A stretch of DNA of 64,000 nt from an uncultured Eubacteriales bacterium. Lineage in GTDB: Bacteria > Bacillota > Clostridia > Christensenellales > Aristaeellaceae. How positions within the stretch are numbered: position 1 is the stretch's first letter; every line of letters begins with the position of its first letter. Below, piece after piece: positions 3,851 through 63,727 of this stretch. Location of the stretch: NCBI GenBank assembly GCA_902799465.1, contig CADCAS010000003.1:1-64000 (forward strand), given 5' to 3'. The translations under genes and the position numbers were made by a program. Under the pieces are notes generated by a model. The model was not told the origin of the DNA, did no database searches, and worked only from the letters and a program-made list of their open reading frames with translations.

Positions 3851-4951
3851 ATGTCTGAGAACCGGGATGAACGGGGCGGTCGCGAAGCGGGCGCCGAGCA
3901 TCACCACCGTAAGCGCAAAAGCATCTGGCGCAGGTTTAAGCACAAGGTCAAGCGCACCCTGTACCGCAAGAAGTGGCTGATCCCCATCACGCTGATCTCC
4001 CTGGTGCTGCTGGTGAGCGCGGGGCTCTTCCTGCGCGGCCAGATCGTCGGCATGGCCGGCAGCAGGGTCAGCGCCGCCAAGCAGATGAACGTGGGCAGCG
4101 GCTACCGCAATATCACCTACAAGGGGAAGGAATACCGCTACAATTCCCGGATCACGTCCGTGCTGTACGTGGGCGTGGACTCCGAGGGCGAGCTCAAGAC
4201 AAATGACCACTTCGGCGCGGGCGCGAGTGCTGACAGCATCTCCTTGGTGGTGATGGATGAGTTCCATCGCAAGATGACCATCATCGCCATCAACCGCAAT
4301 ACGATCTGCAAGATACACCGCTATGGCCGCTTTGGCCACGACTTTGGCGAGTTCGTGGATCAGCTGTGCCTGTCCTTCGCCTATGGCGATAACGGACCCA
4401 TGTCCTGCTGGAATCTGCGCAACTCGGTCTCACAGATCATGTACGGCATCCCCATCAACGAGTACGTGATCACCAACCGCTCCTCTCTGCCGGAGATCAT
4501 GCGGGTGCTCGGAAACATCACCGTGACGGTGCCCAACAACGATCTGGCAGACAAGGGCTTCATTGAAGGCGAAACCGCCATCATCAATGGGAGCAATGTC
4601 GAGACCTTCGTGCGCTCCCGCGATACGAAAGTCGAGTTTTCCAACGTGGGCCGCATGGAGCGCCAGAAGGCGTTCATCAACGGCGCCATGGAGACCATCA
4701 CGGAGTTGCTCGATCTGAGGCCCAACGAGGTGTGGCGCAAGATTGAGGCCGCGGAGTACTGCGTGCAGACCAATATCACGCGCAGCCGCTATCTGGATCT
4801 GACAAAGGCGATTTCCAACGCAGTCTATACGGACGACAGCTATTACGTGGTCGACGGCAAGAGCGTGGCCGGCCCGCTGTGGGACGAGTTCTACGTCGAC
4901 AACGAAAAGTTGCTCGACAAGATCGTGGAGATTTTCTACATAGAGAAATAG
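3851..4951 (+). CDS. LytR-CpsA-Psr (LCP) family protein
   Basis: A 366-residue membrane-anchored protein. A highly basic cytoplasmic N-terminus is followed by a helix around residues 40-60, then an LCP domain outside the cell. LCP hallmarks are ITSVLYVGVDS, ADSISLVVMD, and VRSRDTKVEFSNVGRMERQ, which carries the conserved Arg residues that bind pyrophosphate-linked lipid. The usual PRDT motif reads NRNT (in AINRNT), so a conserved Asp is Asn. LCP enzymes transfer undecaprenyl-linked glycopolymers to the cell wall; this one probably attaches the polymer controlled by the upstream kinase set. Confidence 0.88.
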   Translation: MSENRDERGGREAGAEHHHRKRKSIWRRFKHKVKRTLYRKKWLIPITLISLVLLVSAGLFLRGQIVGMAGSRVSAAKQMNVGSGYRNITYKGKEYRYNSRITSVLYVGVDSEGELKTNDHFGAGASADSISLVVMDEFHRKMTIIAINRNTICKIHRYGRFGHDFGEFVDQLCLSFAYGDNGPMSCWNLRNSVSQIMYGIPINEYVITNRSSLPEIMRVLGNITVTVPNNDLADKGFIEGETAIINGSNVETFVRSRDTKVEFSNVGRMERQKAFINGAMETITELLDLRPNEVWRKIEAAEYCVQTNITRSRYLDLTKAISNAVYTDDSYYVVDGKSVAGPLWDEFYVDNEKLLDKIVEIFYIEK

Positions 4952-49362: not shown

Positions 49363-52300
49363 ATGAGAGGCAATCAACGCAAGCGCAGGACGGTTTTCAG
49401 CTGGCTTTCACTGCTGATCGTCGCGGCGATGGTCGTGCCGATGTTCTCCGCCATTGCCCTGGCCGAGGAGGCCCAGGCGGCGGTGGAGGAGATCGAGTTT
49501 GAACTGGCCGGCGACGACACCGGGGAGCCGGAGGAGCCGGAAATGGAGGCCGAGGCTGAGGACGGCGACGCGATACTCGCCGAGTATTTCGCGGCCGCGG
49601 AGGCCGCCACCGCGCCCGATTCCGGCACCGGCATCCAGGAGGAGCTGGTCATCTACGATTTCGAGGAGCCGGAGAAGCCCTATTATGAGTTGAGCTCCAA
49701 GCCCTCCCTGGCCGAGGCGCGCGCCAGTTTGCCCGCCACCCTCACCGCGCTGCTGTCCAACGGCGAGCGGGAGGAGGTGCCCGTCACCTGGACCACCGAC
49801 GAGGACACCTACGCCGAGGAGGATTACGGCGAGTTCATCTTCACCGCCGAGCTGGGCAAGGGCGCGAAGTACGCCCTGGACGACGACGAGTTTGAAATGC
49901 CCTATGTGTCGGTGTACGTGCTCTACGTCAGCGACATCCAGATCGACGGCGAGGACACCTATGTGGTGTCGGAAAAGCCCGCGCCCACCGACGCGGAGTG
50001 CGCCGACATCCTGGGCTTCCCGGTGACGGCCACCATCACCCTGGAGGGCTACGACACCACCGAGAAGCGCGTCCCCATCGCGTGGGTCTGCGACGAATAC
50101 GACGAGGAGGACGAGGGCGACTTCTACTTCTACGCCGGGTTTGACACCGATGTGGACTACCTGCTGGAGTCCACCGTGGACCTGCCGGTGATCCTGCTGT
50201 CCGTGATCACCAGCGAGGACTTTACCTTCTCCGTGAATCCCGACGGCATGACGGTCACCGTCACCGGCTGGAAGAAATCCGGCGACACGCTGCATGTGCC
50301 CGATTACATCGGCGACGCGCAGGTGACCGCCATCGCGGATTACGCCTTCGCCGGCCATGACGAGCTGCTGGACGTTCAGGTGCCCGGCGGCGTCGAGCGC
50401 ATGGGCAGCGGCGTGTTTGACGGCTGCACCGGCCTGCGCTGGGCCGAACTGCCCGATTCGCTGACCGGGGTCGGCAGCAATCTGTTCGACGAGGCGGTGC
50501 TGGACGAGCTGGCCCTGACCCTCGCCGTCTACGACGCCACCACCCTCACCGCGCCCGACACCTACAAGCGCGGCGACGACACCGTGAAGCTGCCCCGCGC
50601 GATCAGCTCCCTCAAGGTCAATGCCTACGGCAATCTGACCGTGGACACCGACTTCACCGTGGAGATCAGCGACAACTTCAATACCATCGACGTCCAGCCC
50701 TTCGGCATACTGACGCTCAACGAGGGCAGGAAGCTCGTCAACCTGAACAACATCACCGTGGGCGGCACCTTCAACAACAACGGCACCGTCTACGGCTGCT
50801 ACTCCGAGAGCACGCTGGACGGCAGCATCGCGAACTACGTCACCACCCACACCGATCTGGACATCGACGGCGTCTGCGACATCTGCGGCGAGGCCTTCGG
50901 CAAGACCGAGCGCCAGCTGACCGTGACCCTCCGGGACGGCCTGCTGCCCCTGACCAAGGCCTACGACGGCGGGCTGGGGGAGACCACCCTGACCGCGGCG
51001 GATTTCACCCTCCAGAACGTGGCCGAAGAGGACGCGGGCAAGGTGAGCATCGCCAGGATCACCGCCACCTATGACAAGCCCGACGTGGGCGCGGACCGCA
51101 AGGTCACCGTGCAGTTTACGCTGAACCAGGATTCCGAGAACTACAACTACAAGCTGGCCAGCGTGACCTACGAGGGCAGCATCACCGCCAAGGACATCTC
51201 CGACGCGGACATCGCCGTGCAGGACATCGCCGACATGCTCCACACCGGCGAGGAGCTGGAGCCCGAGATCACTGTGAAGCGCGGGAGCAAGGCCCTGGAG
51301 GAGGGCGTGGACTACTCCGTGGAGTACGCCGACAACGTCAAGGTCGGCACCGCGAAGGTCACCGTCAAGGGCATCGGCGGCTACACCGGCACCGTGGAAA
51401 AGACCTTTAAGATCCTGGCCGAAAAGGAAAAGCGCGCGCTGGCCGTGAAGCTCAAGGACGGCGTGAAGCTGAGCAAGGTCTACGACGGCTCCTCCGCCGC
51501 GCCGCTGACGCTGACGGACTTCACCCTGGACACCGCCAAGGTGGCCGAGGGCGACACCGTGGAGCTGACCGCCATCACAGCCAGCTATGACAGCGCCGAT
51601 GTGGGCGAGACCAGGCCCATCACCGTGAAGTTCACCCTCAAGCAGAGCGATTCCGTCTACGACTACACCCTCGCGGACCTGACCCTGGACAAGGGCGCCA
51701 TCACGGCCCGCAACATCACCGAGGCCACCGTCAATCCCGCCTCCATCGCCGACCAGAAGCACACCGGCTCCGCCGTCAAGCCCGAGGTCACCCTGACCTA
51801 CGGCAGCAAGACCCTGGCCGAGGGCCGCGACTACACCGTCACCTACGCCAACAACACCAAGGCCGGCACCGCCACCATGACCATCACCGGCAAGGGCAAC
51901 TTCAACGGCGCGAAGGACATGAAGTTCCGCATCGTGGACAAGGACAAGTCCAAGCGCGCGCTGACCGTGGAGCTCATCAGCGGCTACGAGCCTTCCAAGC
52001 TCTACGACAAGACCACCGCCGTCAACATGAAGCCGTCCTGGTTCACCCTCGAGAACGTGGCCGACGGCGACACCGTGAAGATCACCGCCGTCAAGGCCGC
52101 CTTCGACACCGCAGCGGTGGGAGAGGAGAAGCAGGTCAAGATCAGCTTCGAGCTGAGCCAGTCCTCCACCCAGTACAACTACACCGTGGAGCCCATCACC
52201 GTCGAGGGCACCATCCTGCCGCGCCCGCTGACCATCATCCCCGCCAAGGGGCAGAGCAAGGTGTACGGCACGAAGGATCCCACCCACTTCAAGGGCACCG

Positions 52301-54486
52301 TGCGCGGCCTGCTGGAGGGCGACACCATCACCGGCAGCTTAAGCCGCGAGGGCGCGGGCGAGGAGGACGGCGAGGACGCCGGGAAGTATGAATACACCCT
52401 GGGCACCCTCAAGGCCGCCGCCTACTATGAGATGCCCGAGGAGCTGGAGAGCGAAGAGGTATTCACCATCACCCAGAAGCCCCTCACCGCCACCGACGTC
52501 ACCGTGACCCTGGACAAGACCGAGTACACCCTGGACGACGACGAGGTGGAGCCTGAGATCACCGTCAAGTACGGCACCATCACCCTCGAGGAGGATGACG
52601 ACTACACCGTCACCTTCGAGAACAACAAGAAGGTGGGCACCGGCACCGCCATCATCACCGCCCACAAGGACGAAAAGACCGGCGCTTACGACGGCAACTA
52701 CACCGGCACCCGTTCCGTGACCTTCAAGATCAAGAAGGGCTCCTCCTCCGGCGGACATTCCGGCGGCAGCTCCGACGATGACGACGAGGAGGAGGACGAG
52801 GAGATCGAGTATCCCACCAACGAGGAGGGCTTCCTGATGCTATCCGTAGGCGATAAGGAGGTCCCGACAGGTTACATCCTGTTTGGCGAGGACAACTATA
52901 CCCGTCCCTTCGACCAGGAATACCTCGATTCCGATTACACGCCCGATCCCGCGCATGAGTATCTGCCCGAGGAGCTGGGCGAGGATGGCGAGCCCCTGCC
53001 GTATCAGGATCTGGTCATCCAGCCCAGGGCCATGATGGACCCCGAGGGCAACGTGATCTCCATGACCGATGAGCTGGACGAGGGCCGCGAACGCTACGAG
53101 CTGGTGCACCTGCGGCTGACGCCCATACAGATCTCCCTCCTCAAGCTGAACCACATCGTGAATCTGGTCTATCAGATCGAAAACGTGAGCATGCGCGTGC
53201 CGCTGGCCGAGCTGACGGACGAGGTCGACCTGACCCGCTTCCTGGATGAGGAAGCGCAGCAGGAAAGCGCCTACGCCGACGAGGAGGAGCATTGGGAGGA
53301 CGAGGAGACCGAAGAAGAAGAGTCTGACGACGCGGATGAGGACGCGGAGGAGGACGAGGAAGAGGCGAAGGAGGCCGGCGACAAGAGCATCGCGCCGCCC
53401 GTGGCCCAGGTGAAGAATTACGTGTTCACCATCGACCAGGTGGAGCGGGACGCCCTCACCGAGCGGGAGAAGACCGCGCTGAAGAACCGCGCCTCCCTGG
53501 TGCCCATGTACCGCGTGGACCTGAGCGCCGTGGACGGCGAGCTCGAGGCCTACCTGACCCGGACCGGCAATTCCGCCGATACCGCCAGCGTCGTGGAGCC
53601 CCCCGTGGGCGGCCCCGGGGAGCCCCGGAAGCCTCTGCCCAACTTCTACAGCATGCTCGAGGTGTTCCCCAGCGTGGAGCTGCGGATCAACGAGCTCTTC
53701 ACGACCCCCGACGACTACGACGCGGAGACCGGGAAGTTCTACAGCGAGGAAGAGGAAGAAGAGGAAGAGGAAACCGAGGACGACGAAGAATCGGAGACCG
53801 ACGAGGAGATGACCGAGGACGAGGAGATGATCGGGGACGCGGACGAGGAGGAGACCGAAGAGGATACCCCCGTGCTCGACCCCGACGCCCTGCCCCCCAC
53901 GGCCCAGACCCTGATCGTGTCCAACGATGAAAAGCTGACCGACGAGGACGCCATCCGCACCATGGACCCCGACTACGTCTACGAGGACGAGAACGGCGAC
54001 AGCTTCGCCAGGTTCATGCCCGACACGAGCGGCCTGTACACCATCGTCATGAAGGTCCCTTCCACCGGCGATGAAGAGGAAGAAGCGGAGGATGAGATCG
54101 AGGACGAGGCCGACGCGGAGGACGACGCCGAGGAGGCGGAGACCGCCGAGCCCGCAGAGGCTGAGCCCGAGGAGGACGAGGCCCTGCTGTACGCCTACAC
54201 CCGCCGCTCCAATGAGGGCAGCCAGTATTGGCTGATCGACACCGAGGCCAAGACCGTGGAGTTCTACCGGGCCGATACCGACGAATACGACATCGGCGAC
54301 TACACCGGGAGCCTGATCAGCGGCATGCTGGTCACCTTCCGCAATTCCGGCGAGACCACGACCATCGAGCTGAAGTTCCCCCAGACCTACAAGTTCGCCA
54401 CCATGGACGACAATGGCACCCCGCTGCTGATGGAGCAGGCGGAGATCCCCGACGTGGAATCCGCACTCCAGCCGCACAGGGGGTAA
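49363..54486 (+). CDS. Large exported repeat protein, paralog of the upstream giant
   Basis: A 1707-residue exported protein with the same order of parts as its neighbour. The signal peptide (1-34) leads to an acidic stretch, two Ig-like modules (about 113-285), a BspA-type LRR_5 region (about 286-510), three KxYDxx modules, three GxDYTVxYxNN-type modules, and an MBG-type module (KVYGTKDPTHFKG). A Ser/Gly/Asp linker (about 1125-1150) and an acidic C-terminal region follow. The final ~90 residues ([38 protein letters not shown]) match the first protein closely. No LPXTG anchor. A tandem duplication with divergence in repeat number is the simplest origin. Confidence 0.88.
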   Translation: MRGNQRKRRTVFSWLSLLIVAAMVVPMFSAIALAEEAQAAVEEIEFELAGDDTGEPEEPEMEAEAEDGDAILAEYFAAAEAATAPDSGTGIQEELVIYDFEEPEKPYYELSSKPSLAEARASLPATLTALLSNGEREEVPVTWTTDEDTYAEEDYGEFIFTAELGKGAKYALDDDEFEMPYVSVYVLYVSDIQIDGEDTYVVSEKPAPTDAECADILGFPVTATITLEGYDTTEKRVPIAWVCDEYDEEDEGDFYFYAGFDTDVDYLLESTVDLPVILLSVITSEDFTFSVNPDGMTVTVTGWKKSGDTLHVPDYIGDAQVTAIADYAFAGHDELLDVQVPGGVERMGSGVFDGCTGLRWAELPDSLTGVGSNLFDEAVLDELALTLAVYDATTLTAPDTYKRGDDTVKLPRAISSLKVNAYGNLTVDTDFTVEISDNFNTIDVQPFGILTLNEGRKLVNLNNITVGGTFNNNGTVYGCYSESTLDGSIANYVTTHTDLDIDGVCDICGEAFGKTERQLTVTLRDGLLPLTKAYDGGLGETTLTAADFTLQNVAEEDAGKVSIARITATYDKPDVGADRKVTVQFTLNQDSENYNYKLASVTYEGSITAKDISDADIAVQDIADMLHTGEELEPEITVKRGSKALEEGVDYSVEYADNVKVGTAKVTVKGIGGYTGTVEKTFKILAEKEKRALAVKLKDGVKLSKVYDGSSAAPLTLTDFTLDTAKVAEGDTVELTAITASYDSADVGETRPITVKFTLKQSDSVYDYTLADLTLDKGAITARNITEATVNPASIADQKHTGSAVKPEVTLTYGSKTLAEGRDYTVTYANNTKAGTATMTITGKGNFNGAKDMKFRIVDKDKSKRALTVELISGYEPSKLYDKTTAVNMKPSWFTLENVADGDTVKITAVKAAFDTAAVGEEKQVKISFELSQSSTQYNYTVEPITVEGTILPRPLTIIPAKGQSKVYGTKDPTHFKGTVRGLLEGDTITGSLSREGAGEEDGEDAGKYEYTLGTLKAAAYYEMPEELESEEVFTITQKPLTATDVTVTLDKTEYTLDDDEVEPEITVKYGTITLEEDDDYTVTFENNKKVGTGTAIITAHKDEKTGAYDGNYTGTRSVTFKIKKGSSSGGHSGGSSDDDDEEEDEEIEYPTNEEGFLMLSVGDKEVPTGYILFGEDNYTRPFDQEYLDSDYTPDPAHEYLPEELGEDGEPLPYQDLVIQPRAMMDPEGNVISMTDELDEGRERYELVHLRLTPIQISLLKLNHIVNLVYQIENVSMRVPLAELTDEVDLTRFLDEEAQQESAYADEEEHWEDEETEEEESDDADEDAEEDEEEAKEAGDKSIAPPVAQVKNYVFTIDQVERDALTEREKTALKNRASLVPMYRVDLSAVDGELEAYLTRTGNSADTASVVEPPVGGPGEPRKPLPNFYSMLEVFPSVELRINELFTTPDDYDAETGKFYSEEEEEEEEETEDDEESETDEEMTEDEEMIGDADEEETEEDTPVLDPDALPPTAQTLIVSNDEKLTDEDAIRTMDPDYVYEDENGDSFARFMPDTSGLYTIVMKVPSTGDEEEEAEDEIEDEADAEDDAEEAETAEPAEAEPEEDEALLYAYTRRSNEGSQYWLIDTEAKTVEFYRADTDEYDIGDYTGSLISGMLVTFRNSGETTTIELKFPQTYKFATMDDNGTPLLMEQAEIPDVESALQPHRG

Positions 54487-58510: not shown

Positions 58511-60271
58511 ATGCTTGATCCGACCATCTACAAGGATTGGCAAATCGCGGAGGATGCTGAGAAGCGGCTGCCTCCCGTGGACTATTTCCGTGAGAAGCTG
58601 GGCCTGCTGCCCGAGGAGATCATCCCCTACGGCAAGACCCCGAAGCTCGACTTCATCAAGATCATGAACCGCCTGAAGGACAAGCCCGACGGCAAGTTCA
58701 TCGAAGTCACCGCCATCACCCCCACCCCCCTGGGCGAGGGCAAATCCACCGTCTCTCTGGGCCTGATCGAGGGCCTGGCGAAGATCGGCAAGAACGTCGG
58801 CGGCGCGCTGCGTCAGCCCTCCGGCGGCCCCACCATGAACGTCAAAGGCACCGCGGCCGGCGGCGGCAACGCCCTGCTGATGCCCATGACCGAGTTCTCC
58901 CTCGGCCTGACCGGCGACATCAACGACATCATGAACGCCCACAACCTGGCCATGGTGGCGCTGAACGCCCGCATGCAGCATGAGCGCAACTACACCGACG
59001 AGGAGATGGCCAAGCACAACATGGGCCGTCGCCTGGACATCGACCCCAAGCGCATCGAGATGGGCTGGGTGCTGGACTTCTGCGCCCAGGGTCTTCGCAA
59101 CATCATCATGGGCATCGGCGGCAACAAGGACGGCTATCTGATGGAGTCCAAGTTCGGCATCGCCGTGGGTTCCGAGCTGATGGCGATCCTGGCCGTGGCC
59201 AGGGATCTTAAGGACCTGCGCGAGCGCATCGGCAAGATCGTGGTGGCCTACAGCCGCTCCGGCGAGCCCGTGACCTGCGAGGATCTGGAGGTTGCCGGCG
59301 CGATGACCGCGTGGATGCGCAACACCATCAACCCCACCATGTGCTACACCGTCGAGCATCAGCCCGTGCTGATCCACGCCGGCCCCTTCGCCAACATCGC
59401 CATCGGCCAGTCCTCCGTCATCGCCGACAGGCTGGCGCTGAAGCTGTTCGACTATCACGTCACCGAGTCCGGCTTCGCCGCGGACATCGGCTTTGAGAAG
59501 TTCTGGAACGTCAAGACCCGCCTGTCCGGCCTGACCCCGAACGTCTCCGTCATCGTCGCCACCATCCGTGCTCTGAAGATGCACGGCGGCGGACCCAAGG
59601 TCTCTCCCGGCCGTCCCCTGCCCGTGGAGTACACCGAGGAGAACCTCGAGCTGGTCGAGAAGGGCTGCGAGAACCTGTTCCATCACGTCAACACCGTGCT
59701 GAAGTCTGGCATCGTGCCCGTGGTGTGCATCAACCAGTTCTACACCGACACCGACAACGAGATCAAGCTGGTCAAGCGCCTGTGCGCCGAGCGCGGCGTG
59801 CGCTGCGCCCAGTCCAACCACTGGCGCTACGGCGGCGAAGGCGCCGTGGAGCTGGCCCAGGTGGTCGTCGAGGCCTGCGAGCAGAAGCCCGAGATCAAGT
59901 TCCTGTATGACCTGGATATGCCGCTGCGGCAGCGCGTCGAGCTGATCGCCAAGGAAGTCTACGGCGCGGACGGCGTCGATTGGGCGCCCCTGGCCATCGA
60001 GAAGGCCAAGCGCTTCGAGAGCGATCCCAAGTACGCCGACTACTGCACCATGATGGTCAAGACCCATCTGTCCCTGTCCCACGACCCGACCCTCAAGGGC
60101 GTGCCGAAGGGCTGGCGTCTGCCCATCCGCGACATCCTGGAGTACGGCGGAGCCAAGTTCCTGTGCCCCATGGCCGGCACCATCTCCATGATGCCCGGCA
60201 CCGCCTCCGACCCGGCTTATCGCCGCGTGGATGTGGACACCGAGACCGGCAAGGTCAGCGGCCTGTTCTGA
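58511..60271 (+). CDS. fhs: Formate--tetrahydrofolate ligase
   Basis: A 586-residue enzyme that makes 10-formyl-THF from formate, THF and ATP. The P-loop reads [15 protein letters not shown] (Ser where most members have Thr). [29 protein letters not shown] and the C-terminal ending [24 protein letters not shown] are family features. About 30 residues longer than the usual ~556, with the additional length in the N-terminal part before the P-loop. ATG 58511 follows CAGGAGGAGATATA. It is the first of three co-directional folate genes. Confidence 0.95.
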
Positions 60272-60339
60272 TCGACATCATATAAAAGGATATGGGTGGC
60301 AGCAATGTCACCCATATTTCCAGTAAAGGAGATAAGCAA

Positions 60340-60963
60340 ATGGCAGTTGATTTCACTCAGAATTCTTGCCGTGAATTTGTGGAGGTCCTGGCCTCCAACG
60401 CCCCCGTCCCGGGCGGCGGCGGCGCGGCGGCGCTGGTGGGCGCCATCGGCACGGCGCTGGGCAATATGGTGGGCAGCCTGACCGTGGGCAAGAAAAAGTA
60501 TGCCGACGTGGAGGCCGAGATCATCGCCCTCAAGGCCAGGTGCGACGATTTGCAGAGGCAGCTTCTGGACCAGGTGCCCGCCGACGCCGAGGGCTTCGAG
60601 CCGCTGGCCAGGGCCTACGGCATCCCCAAGGACGATCCCAACCGCGACAAGGTGCTGGAGGAGGCCACCCTCGTGGCCTGCAAGGTGCCCATGCGCATCA
60701 TGGAGCTGTGCTGCGAGGCCATCGAGGCCATCGCGGTGTTCGCCGCCAAGGGCTCCCGCCTGGCGGTGTCCGACGCGGGCTGCGGCGCGGTGTGCTGCAA
60801 GGCGGCGCTCCAGTCGGCGTCCCTGAACGTGTTCATCAACACCAAGTCCCTAAAGAACCGCGAGGCCGCCGAGGCGCTGAATCAAAAGGCCAACGGCATG
60901 CTCGACAGGTACTGCGCCATGGCGGACGAGATCTTCGCGGGCGTGCGCAAGAATTTCTTCTGA
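60340..60963 (+). CDS. fchA: Methenyl-THF cyclohydrolase / formimino-THF cyclodeaminase family
   Basis: A 207-residue protein of the cyclodeaminase (FTCD C-terminal) family, called FchA in clostridia, which interconverts 10-formyl-THF and 5,10-methenyl-THF (or acts on formimino-THF). The signature APVPGGGGAAALVGAIGTAL (about residues 20-40) and the mid-protein SDAGCGAVCCKAAL are present. The start follows AAAGGAGATAAG. Gene order fhs-fchA-folD points to the cyclohydrolase role in the one-carbon pathway. Confidence 0.88.
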   Translation: MAVDFTQNSCREFVEVLASNAPVPGGGGAAALVGAIGTALGNMVGSLTVGKKKYADVEAEIIALKARCDDLQRQLLDQVPADAEGFEPLARAYGIPKDDPNRDKVLEEATLVACKVPMRIMELCCEAIEAIAVFAAKGSRLAVSDAGCGAVCCKAALQSASLNVFINTKSLKNREAAEALNQKANGMLDRYCAMADEIFAGVRKNFF

Positions 60964-61008
60964 ACTTTCGGAATGGCTGAACAGGCCTGCGGGGGACTCG
61001 AATCGCCA

Positions 61009-61041
61009 TTCCTGTTCCCTGTTCCCTGTTCCCTGTTCCCT
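61009..61041. repeat. Family A half-element, copy A10, inside the folate operon
   Basis: Four TTCCCTG heptamers in a row with a leading TTCCTG, ending immediately before the folD ribosome site (ACGGAGG). This is a lone right-type arm lying in the fchA-folD gap and ending about 18 nt before the folD start. Confidence 0.75.
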
Positions 61042-61058
61042 CTACGGAGGTATAATAT

Positions 61059-61943
61059 ATGGCAAAGCTTTTACTGGGCAAGGAAGTCACCGCCGCGCTG
61101 AACGCAAAGCTCCAGGCGCGGGTGGCGGCGCTGAAGGAAAAGGGCGTGACCCCGAAGCTGGGCATTGTGCGCTGCGGCGAGAACCCGTCGGACCTGTCCT
61201 ATGAGAAGGGCGCGACGGCCCGCGCGGAGCTGATCGGCGTGGAGGTCGAGAAGTTCGTGCTGCCCGAGGACGTGACCAAGGAAGCCCTGATCGACCAGAT
61301 CAAGGCCATCAACGCCGATGATTCCATCCACGGCGTGCTGATGTTCCGGCCCCTGCCCAAGCACCTCAAGGCGGACCAGGACGAGATCTGCAACACCCTC
61401 GATCCCGCCAAGGACGTGGACTGCATGACCGACCTGAGCAACGCGGGCGTGTTCGAGGGCCGCAAGGACCTGGGCTTCCCGCCCTGCACCCCCCAGGCGT
61501 GCATGGAGATCCTGGACTACTACGGCATCGACTGCAAGGGCAAGAAGGCCGTCGTGATCGGCCGCAGCCTGGTGGTGGGCAAGCCCGCCGCCATGATGCT
61601 GATGGGCAAGAACGCCACCGTCACCGTGTGCCACACCCGCACCGTGGACGTGCCTAAGGAGGCCCGCGAGGCGGACATCCTGGTGTCCTCCGCCGGCGTG
61701 CTGAAGAGCCTGACCAAGGATTACGTGAAGCCCGGCCAGATCGTCATCGACGTCTCCATCAACTGGGACCCCGAGAAGATCAACTCCAAGGGCGGCAAGG
61801 GCGCCATCGCGGGCGACGCCGTGTTTGAGGAGGTCGAGCCCATCGTGGACGCCATCACCCCGGTTCCCGGCGGCGTGGGCTCCGTCACCACCTCCGTGCT
61901 CATCGGCCACGTGGTCGAGGCCGCGGAGCGCAAAAACGCATAA
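61059..61943 (+). CDS. folD: Methylene-THF dehydrogenase, FolD family, probably lacking cyclohydrolase activity
   Basis: A 294-residue FolD-fold protein. The NADP Rossmann region reads VVIGRSLVVGKPAAMML and the C-terminal signature ITPVPGGVGSVTTSVLI is intact. In the folate site, Tyr48 and Asp121 match the E. coli catalytic Tyr and Asp. The position of the essential Lys (E. coli Lys54/human Lys56) is Ala52, and the Gln position in the VQLPLP motif is Phe96 (reads MFRPLP). These two are needed for the cyclohydrolase step, not for hydride transfer. With fchA directly upstream, it is probably a dehydrogenase only. Confidence 0.9.
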   Translation: MAKLLLGKEVTAALNAKLQARVAALKEKGVTPKLGIVRCGENPSDLSYEKGATARAELIGVEVEKFVLPEDVTKEALIDQIKAINADDSIHGVLMFRPLPKHLKADQDEICNTLDPAKDVDCMTDLSNAGVFEGRKDLGFPPCTPQACMEILDYYGIDCKGKKAVVIGRSLVVGKPAAMMLMGKNATVTVCHTRTVDVPKEAREADILVSSAGVLKSLTKDYVKPGQIVIDVSINWDPEKINSKGGKGAIAGDAVFEEVEPIVDAITPVPGGVGSVTTSVLIGHVVEAAERKNA

Positions 61944-62024: not shown

Positions 62025-63335
62025 ATGGAAGCGATACGCAAGATGGAAACGGGCAAGGTCCTGCGGGCGTTGATGTGCCTGTTCAGCCTGGCCTTCCTGA
62101 TCGGGGCGGTGCTGGCCCCCGACCTGCCGGAGATCTTCACCGGCTTCGGCCGCATCTGCACCCTGCCGGCGCAGCTGACCAAGGACTACTTCAAGCCGGA
62201 GCTGGGTAGCATCTCCGGTTCGCTGCTGAACTACTTTCTGCTGAGCGCGGTGTGCTGCGCGCTGATGTTCCTGCCCGGGGCGAAGATCACCGGCGGCACG
62301 GTGCTGGCCTATTTCCTGACCGTCGGGTTCGCCTCCTACGGCATGAACCTCTTAAACATCATCCCGCTGATGCTGGGCGTGGCGGTGTACTCGCTGATCA
62401 AGAAGCAGCCCTTCGGCAAGAATCTGAACTTCTTCATGTTCTCCACGGCCATCGCACCGCTGATCACCCATGTGCTGTTCTACTATCCCGTGGTGGGCGA
62501 CACCCCGCACCTGACCTTTGTGGGCGTTCTGCTGGCGCTGATCGTCGGCGTGGTGTTCGGCTGCGCCATGCCCGCGCTGTGCGCCCATTCCCCGGGGTTC
62601 CACAAGGGCTATGACCTGTACAACGCCGGTCCTGCGGCGGGCTTTCTGTGCTTTTTGATCTACGCGGTGCTGTACAAGACCGCGGGTGTCGAGGCCCCGC
62701 CCATCACCGCCGACCTGGGCGACGGCAACTGGATGTTCGTGAACATCTTCTGCATCGTCACCTTCGGCCTGTGCGTGGTCTTCGGCGTCATGCTGGGCGG
62801 CGCGAAGGACTACGGCAAGCTGTTCACCGATTCCGGGTACAAGAGCGACTTCACCGCCAAGTACTCCACCGGCGCGAACATCATGAACGTGGGCATCTAC
62901 GGCCTGTTCATCGTGCTGTACTACAACCTCATCGGCGCGAAGTTCACCGGCCCCACCATGGGCGCGATCTTCTGCATGCTGTGCTGCTGCTGCAACGGCG
63001 CGACCCCGCTGAACGTGTTCCCGATCATGATCGGCTATGTCATCATGGGCCTGCTGAACAGGGCGGGCGTCACCGCCTTCGCCGTCAACGCCCAGGCCAT
63101 CGTGGTGGGCCTGTGCTTCGCCAGCGGCCTCGCGCCCATCTCCGGCGAGTACGGCATCGTGGCGGGCATCGTGGCCGGCATGCTCCACTACTGCCTGGTC
63201 ACCAGCGTCCCCGCCATCCACGGCGGCTTCAACCTCTACAACGGCGGCTTCACCGCGGGCATCGTCTGCTTCCTGTTCGTGCCCATCCTGGAGCACTACT
63301 TCAAGTCCAAGCGACAGCGCAGGGGTGAGGGTTGA
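62025..63335 (+). CDS. DUF1576 membrane protein
   Basis: A 436-residue polytopic membrane protein with about ten to twelve predicted helices. The repeated motifs GYDLYNAGPAAGFLCFLIY and FNLYNGGFTAGIVCFLFVP suggest an internal duplication, and AIFCMLCCCCNGATPLN is an unusual Cys cluster in a predicted loop. This matches the DUF1576 family known mainly from Firmicutes; its substrate or function is unknown, though transport is a reasonable guess. The ribosome site is AAGGGGGAG. Confidence 0.8.
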   Translation: MEAIRKMETGKVLRALMCLFSLAFLIGAVLAPDLPEIFTGFGRICTLPAQLTKDYFKPELGSISGSLLNYFLLSAVCCALMFLPGAKITGGTVLAYFLTVGFASYGMNLLNIIPLMLGVAVYSLIKKQPFGKNLNFFMFSTAIAPLITHVLFYYPVVGDTPHLTFVGVLLALIVGVVFGCAMPALCAHSPGFHKGYDLYNAGPAAGFLCFLIYAVLYKTAGVEAPPITADLGDGNWMFVNIFCIVTFGLCVVFGVMLGGAKDYGKLFTDSGYKSDFTAKYSTGANIMNVGIYGLFIVLYYNLIGAKFTGPTMGAIFCMLCCCCNGATPLNVFPIMIGYVIMGLLNRAGVTAFAVNAQAIVVGLCFASGLAPISGEYGIVAGIVAGMLHYCLVTSVPAIHGGFNLYNGGFTAGIVCFLFVPILEHYFKSKRQRRGEG

Positions 63336-63578: not shown

Positions 63579-63700
63579 ATTAGGAATTAAGAATGAGGAA
63601 TTAGGAATTGAATGGCCTGGTAGCCTATGCGGTAAACGCGGCAGCCACTATTTAATTCCTAATTCCTAATTCCTAATTCCTAATTCCCAATTCCTAATTG
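63579..63700. repeat. Family A element, copy A11, abutting B6
   Basis: Left arm (63579-63613) TTAGGAA/TTAAGAA heptamers, right arm (63652-63700) about seven TTCCTAA/TTCCCAA heptamers. Boundaries GGCCTGGTAGCC and CGCGGCAGCCACTATT. It starts 2 nt after the end of B6. Confidence 0.85.
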
Positions 63701-63727
63701 TATTTAGGACCGTACAACTGCCTTCTG

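Follow-up and report, generated by a model that had tools for sequence, protein, structure and literature searches.

A division of labour between a dehydrogenase, FolD, and a separate cyclohydrolase, FchA, is not new: clostridia and acetogens have long offered examples of it. In Clostridium perfringens, FolD is said to be a monofunctional dehydrogenase and FchA the cyclohydrolase, a result credited to Aluri et al. in 2016. The proteins studied in that work were C. perfringens FolD, FchA and Fhs (Aluri et al. 2016, doi 10.1099/mic.0.000209; cited in PMC7219735 and PMC11559097). The three are described as separate proteins there, as they are in the DNA described here. Acetobacterium woodii and Clostridium formicoaceticum also have a separate dehydrogenase and cyclohydrolase, M. 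thermoacetica has a bifunctional enzyme (PMC9124964), and fhs, fchA and folD are clustered in A. woodii (PMC3315566). The present locus resembles these acetogens in its two predicted monofunctional enzymes for the Wood-Ljungdahl methyl branch, and its genome also encodes AcsB and MTHFR; it may differ in cofactor, in sequence class and in the metF/metV arrangement, the next gene here being DUF1576.

Yeast MTD1 (PDB 1edz) is described as a monofunctional NAD-dependent dehydrogenase (Barlowe & Appling 1990). It has the same fold as the FolD studied here (Z 29.4), and the catalytic Lys and Gln are replaced in both proteins, the Gln by an aromatic residue in each case (Thr57/Tyr98 in MTD1, Ala52/Phe96 in our FolD). 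The two differ in that they share only 22% identity in the structural alignment, in that MTD1 has Glu for Asp121, and in that no FchA partner is involved in yeast. The bifunctional enzymes E. coli FolD (Z 38.3) and human MTHFD1 (Z 39.3) match it in fold, in their division into two domains, and in the Tyr and Asp of the folate site, but their Lys54/Lys56 and Gln98/Gln100 are absent from our FolD.

Here we describe a fhs-fchA-folD locus in the window, that is, the whole stretch of 64,000 nucleotides from an uncultured Eubacteriales bacterium that was analysed. Judging from its residues and its relatives, the FolD encoded in the window is, with high probability, a methylene-THF dehydrogenase without cyclohydrolase activity, and the fchA gene immediately upstream would supply that step. 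It is the residue losses, the co-occurrence with FchA and the variability of Lys50, taken together, that make a predicted dehydrogenase-only FolD with an FchA cyclohydrolase the best reading.

The locus and the FolD active site

The genes lie on the forward strand in the order fhs-fchA-folD, each preceded by a good ribosome-binding site. The first, fhs (58511–60271), encodes formate--tetrahydrofolate ligase (PF01268, 726 bits; NCBIfam NF010032, 1060 bits against a cut-off of 938). The second, fchA (60340–60963), encodes a putative methenyl-THF cyclohydrolase of the single-domain FTCD_C family (PF04961, 204 bits); its start was set at 60340 and not at the upstream ATG at 60292 because of the ribosome-binding site aaaggag. 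The third, folD (61059–61943), is an intact open reading frame of 294 amino acids with a ggaggt ribosome-binding site upstream, and encodes a methylene-THF dehydrogenase that is predicted to be a dehydrogenase only. The protein exceeds the Pfam cut-offs by far for both domains of the family (PF02882, 174 bits; PF00763, 106 bits), and falls below the cut-off of the curated NCBIfam equivalog for the bifunctional enzyme (257 bits against 411 for NF010770, the best among the models listed).

The protein was aligned with E. coli FolD, the reference sequence of which was matched letter for letter to PDB 1b0a, and with human MTHFD1 from the PDB. The folate-site residues are retained as Tyr48 (E. coli Tyr50, human Tyr52; codon 61200–61202) and Asp121 (E. 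coli Asp121, a pterin-binding residue; codon 61419–61421). The catalytic Lys (E. coli Lys54, human Lys56) is replaced by Ala52 (codon 61212–61214), so that the YxxxK lysine is absent and the segment reads Tyr48-Glu-Lys-Gly-Ala52. The Gln of the QLPLP motif (E. coli Gln98, human Gln100) is replaced by Phe96 (codon 61344–61346), giving FRPLP. All of these assignments had been made by eye in the sequence-only reading of this DNA, and the alignments with E. coli FolD and human MTHFD1 bear them out. Two further changes, Leu99 to Arg97 and Gly122 to Cys122, go beyond that reading.

It had also called for a structure-based alignment, and the outcome of this agrees with it. An AlphaFold2 model built with an alignment of 60 relatives (mean pLDDT 96.1, pTM 0.92) superposes on E. 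coli 1b0a with 282 residues aligned, a Z score of 38.3 and an rmsd of 1.3 A, which confirms a complete FolD fold, and it superposes on solved FolDs over the whole length with Z scores of 38–40. Tyr48 and Ala52 both lie inside a single helix (residues 43–59). Since the alignment from Tyr48 to Ala52 is gapless and falls within one helix, Ala52 corresponds in structure to the Lys. The substrate and cofactor motifs (Tyr48, Asp121, Gly168-Arg169-Ser170 and PGGVG) are retained, and among 60 aligned FolDs, Tyr48, Asp121 and Lys118-Asp119 are invariant and Arg169 and Thr195 nearly so.

In an ordinary FolD, the Lys54/Gln98 pair would handle the transfer of water and protons during the cyclohydrolase reaction. 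Human Gln100 mutants reportedly lose cyclohydrolase activity and keep much of the dehydrogenase activity, as Sundararajan and MacKenzie are said to have found in 2002. Human Lys56 and Gln100 are described as acting jointly, the Lys perhaps carrying a proton in the cyclohydrolase step, and folate as being bound by Tyr52 and Asp125 (PMC3368264; PMC6443876). In E. coli, K54N leaves cyclohydrolase activity undetectable and dehydrogenase activity at about 19%, and Q98H leaves about 8% of the dehydrogenase and about 1% of the cyclohydrolase (PMC5688156). It had been supposed, from the human enzyme, that a change of the Lys abolishes cyclohydrolase but not dehydrogenase activity; for E. coli K54N this needs qualifying, as the dehydrogenase is kept only in part in that mutant. 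Because both residues are lost from the window FolD, loss of the cyclohydrolase is predicted: with Ala and Phe at these positions the pocket would be incapable of cyclohydrolase chemistry, and Tyr48, Asp121 and the nucleotide domain would continue to hold folate and cofactor in place for the transfer of hydride. Since the same two positions matter for the dehydrogenase of E. coli, it is from conservation that we infer dehydrogenase activity in the window FolD; and since K54N and Q98H both cut that activity in E. coli, this FolD subfamily must have compensated elsewhere.

Loss of the lysine and the presence of FchA

We compared 82 FolD sequences, namely the window protein and the proteins of 81 loci, one of them the copy in its own genome and 80 of them relatives from other genomes. 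Ala at position 52 and Phe at position 96 are found in all 82, which excludes chance, and Tyr48 and Asp121 never vary; fchA lies immediately upstream of folD at every one of the 81 loci. Thus the lost Lys and Gln stand as they had been read, but they are no peculiarity of the window genome: the change dates back to the ancestor of a large FolD subfamily, and a recent lesion in this genome is rejected because the Ala/Phe state is subfamily-wide. The named sequence neighbours come from metagenome assemblies of clostridia of the rumen and gut. A plasmid search recovered two named members, Collinsella aerofaciens and Acetoanaerobium noterae, and the FolD of each has the Ala/Phe pair. The C. aerofaciens folD (4001–4855 of locus L290) begins three bases after a gene of the cyclodeaminase/cyclohydrolase family and is annotated as bifunctional.

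Within the order, 60 near relatives were scored for FTCD_C, the family of FchA, and 20 FolDs were read. Each of the 28 genomes of the genus has FTCD_C, as against none of eight others of the same family and four of 24 from other families of the order. All nine FolDs without the Lys are in genomes with FTCD_C, and all 11 with both Lys and Gln are in genomes without it. In both traits together the genus stands apart from the rest of its family, which suggests that a bifunctional FolD has been replaced by the fchA-folD pair.

The same comparison was made in 186 genomes drawn evenly from the phylum. Every FolD copy is without Lys54 in 40 genomes, and FTCD_C is present in 39 of these; the Lys is kept and Gln98 is changed, mostly to Glu, in 29 genomes, all with FTCD_C; and at least one FolD copy with both Lys and Gln is present in 117, of which 40 have FTCD_C. 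In the genomes with FTCD_C, its gene adjoins folD in 24 of 39 of the class without Lys, in 22 of 29 of the Lys/Glu class and in none of 37 canonical ones. The nominal Fisher p-value for the class without Lys against the canonical class is 2e-13, and such values overstate independence because the genomes share ancestry. The FolD tree calls for at least five changes of the Lys (about five suffice), of which supported branches force two; an independent-pairs test of Lys loss against FchA yields three supported pairs, too few to reach significance. The link is thus numerically strong, but it recurs in a few lineages and not in many.

The window FolD groups on the tree with other sequences that have no Lys, in a clade that numbers 27 of those sampled (support 94–96), and Collinsella is among the rows nearest to it. 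Further losses of the Lys are placed within the Lys/Glu clade (Leu at position 54) and within a Gln54/Glu121 clade, both starred on the tree. Seven genomes have a FolD without the Lys and have no FTCD_C, and six of them own a second FolD with both Lys and Gln, in tandem in two and elsewhere in the genome in the other four. The sole exception, genome G208, has three FolDs, all without Lys54, and no FTCD_C was found in it; a copy may be missing from the assembly, or the genome may meet the need in another way. We think it likely that the large FolD subfamily without Lys54 and Gln98, which spans many families of the Bacillota and also Collinsella (Actinomycetota), is dehydrogenase-only throughout, and that folD and fchA move together in it as a two-gene cassette that has taken the place of the bifunctional FolD. 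The cyclohydrolase residues would then have disappeared on several separate occasions, always in a genome with FchA or with another FolD that is intact.

It is very unlikely that the window FolD is still bifunctional, with Lys50 or Arg97 standing in for Lys54 and FchA providing no more than extra capacity. Arg97 is indeed invariant in the 82 close sequences, and Arg recurs at this position in other FolDs without the Lys, but elsewhere in the clade of the window FolD the position is Ala, Ser or Cys. Lys50, which the sequence-only reading had itself raised as a possible substitute, is an unlikely one: position 50 is Lys, Arg, Asn or Ser in close relatives and Gly in other members of the clade, and the residue should point away because it lies two residues along the helix from Tyr48. 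Furthermore, a stand-in residue would leave the near-strict link to FchA unexplained. The division of labour that had been predicted, with Fhs, FchA and a dehydrogenase-only FolD, is strongly supported by this co-occurrence, and the pairing of such a putative dehydrogenase with FchA, as judged by residues and gene content, proves to hold as a rule throughout one entire branch of the FolD family.

Two other arrangements were seen among these genomes. In the class that retains Lys54 and has Glu for Gln98 (ELPLP), folD mostly lies directly before the FTCD_C gene, and this class may represent a second route to a dehydrogenase-only FolD. In several Bacillota genomes two FolD genes are found near each other, mostly in tandem, one with Gln54 and Glu121 and the other with Lys54 and Gln98 (and Asp121 where it was read); by their residues, these pairs look like a split into a dehydrogenase resembling yeast MTD1 and a bifunctional or cyclohydrolase copy.

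The FchA neighbour, metabolic setting and annotation

The FTCD_C neighbour could instead be a formimino-THF cyclodeaminase of histidine or purine breakdown, linked to FolD only through shared folate metabolism. The Pfam family spans both functions, so that membership is no proof of a cyclohydrolase, and the window FchA scores under the NCBIfam equivalog cut-off for MthfCyhylaseFchA (180 bits against 275 for NF045657). This model is nevertheless the sole NCBIfam model that the protein matches, the formiminotransferase domain PF07837 was not found in the 95%-complete genome, and the gene order fhs-fchA-folD speaks against a cyclodeaminase. A role in histidine breakdown is rejected, since PF07837 was not found in this genome, and we give the cyclodeaminase reading as a whole an even smaller chance than a FolD that is still bifunctional. 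Least probable of all is a FolD that has decayed or been repurposed and has neither activity, methylene-THF dehydrogenase coming from elsewhere: changes of Lys54 and Gln98 do lower the E. coli dehydrogenase too (PMC5688156), but folD is under purifying selection (dN/dS 0.13–0.32 against seven relatives), its substrate and cofactor motifs are conserved, it shares an operon with fhs and fchA, and a search of the assembly, some 95% complete, found no second FolD.

With a dehydrogenase-only FolD and an FchA cyclohydrolase, Fhs would join formate to THF to give 10-formyl-THF, FchA would cyclise this to 5,10-methenyl-THF, and FolD, using a nicotinamide cofactor, would reduce the product to 5,10-methylene-THF, or catalyse the reverse. 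The genome encodes two different acetyl-CoA synthase genes of the AcsB type (AcsB/CdhC), on separate contigs, and two genes of the MTHFR type. The fhs-fchA-folD operon most likely serves the Wood-Ljungdahl methyl branch in a rumen or gut acetogen, for which we infer the direction of flux.

Most acetogens carry fchA and folD, and their folD is still labelled bifunctional (PMC10103890). FolD is annotated as bifunctional nearly everywhere, including in C. aerofaciens of the Ala/Phe subfamily. A literature search found no paper tying the loss of Lys54 and Gln98 to FchA, subscription papers being outside its reach. The result added here is the two-residue rule, which is useful and testable: two residues appear sufficient to pick out the FolDs that require a cyclohydrolase of their own beside them. 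If the rule is true, thousands of annotations as "bifunctional FolD" are wrong, and this can be read from the two residues; it would correct metabolic models of gut and rumen anaerobes, in which FchA is likely to be an essential gene. The FolD variants would also form a natural series of enzymes in which to follow how one active site lost one of its two reactions.

Several further features of the region were recorded. A gene for a DUF1576 membrane protein (62028–63335) comes after folD, and in most of the 80 related loci a DUF1576 gene is likewise found 3' of fchA-folD, also where the other type of Fhs is present; its fixed position suggests that the protein takes part in the transport or metabolism of one-carbon units. 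The fhs slot before fchA-folD in these loci is occupied by two types of Fhs, 88–99% or 41–45% identical to that of the window. A short tandem repeat, cctgttccctgttccc, lies between fchA and folD (60990–61045), and another, ttaattcctaattcc, together with a copy on the opposite strand, lies after the DUF1576 gene (63585–63710); both are possibly remnants of small mobile elements. Upstream, 49363–54486 encodes an acidic, repetitive protein of 1707 amino acids with a signal-like N-terminus, which is probably secreted or located at the surface.
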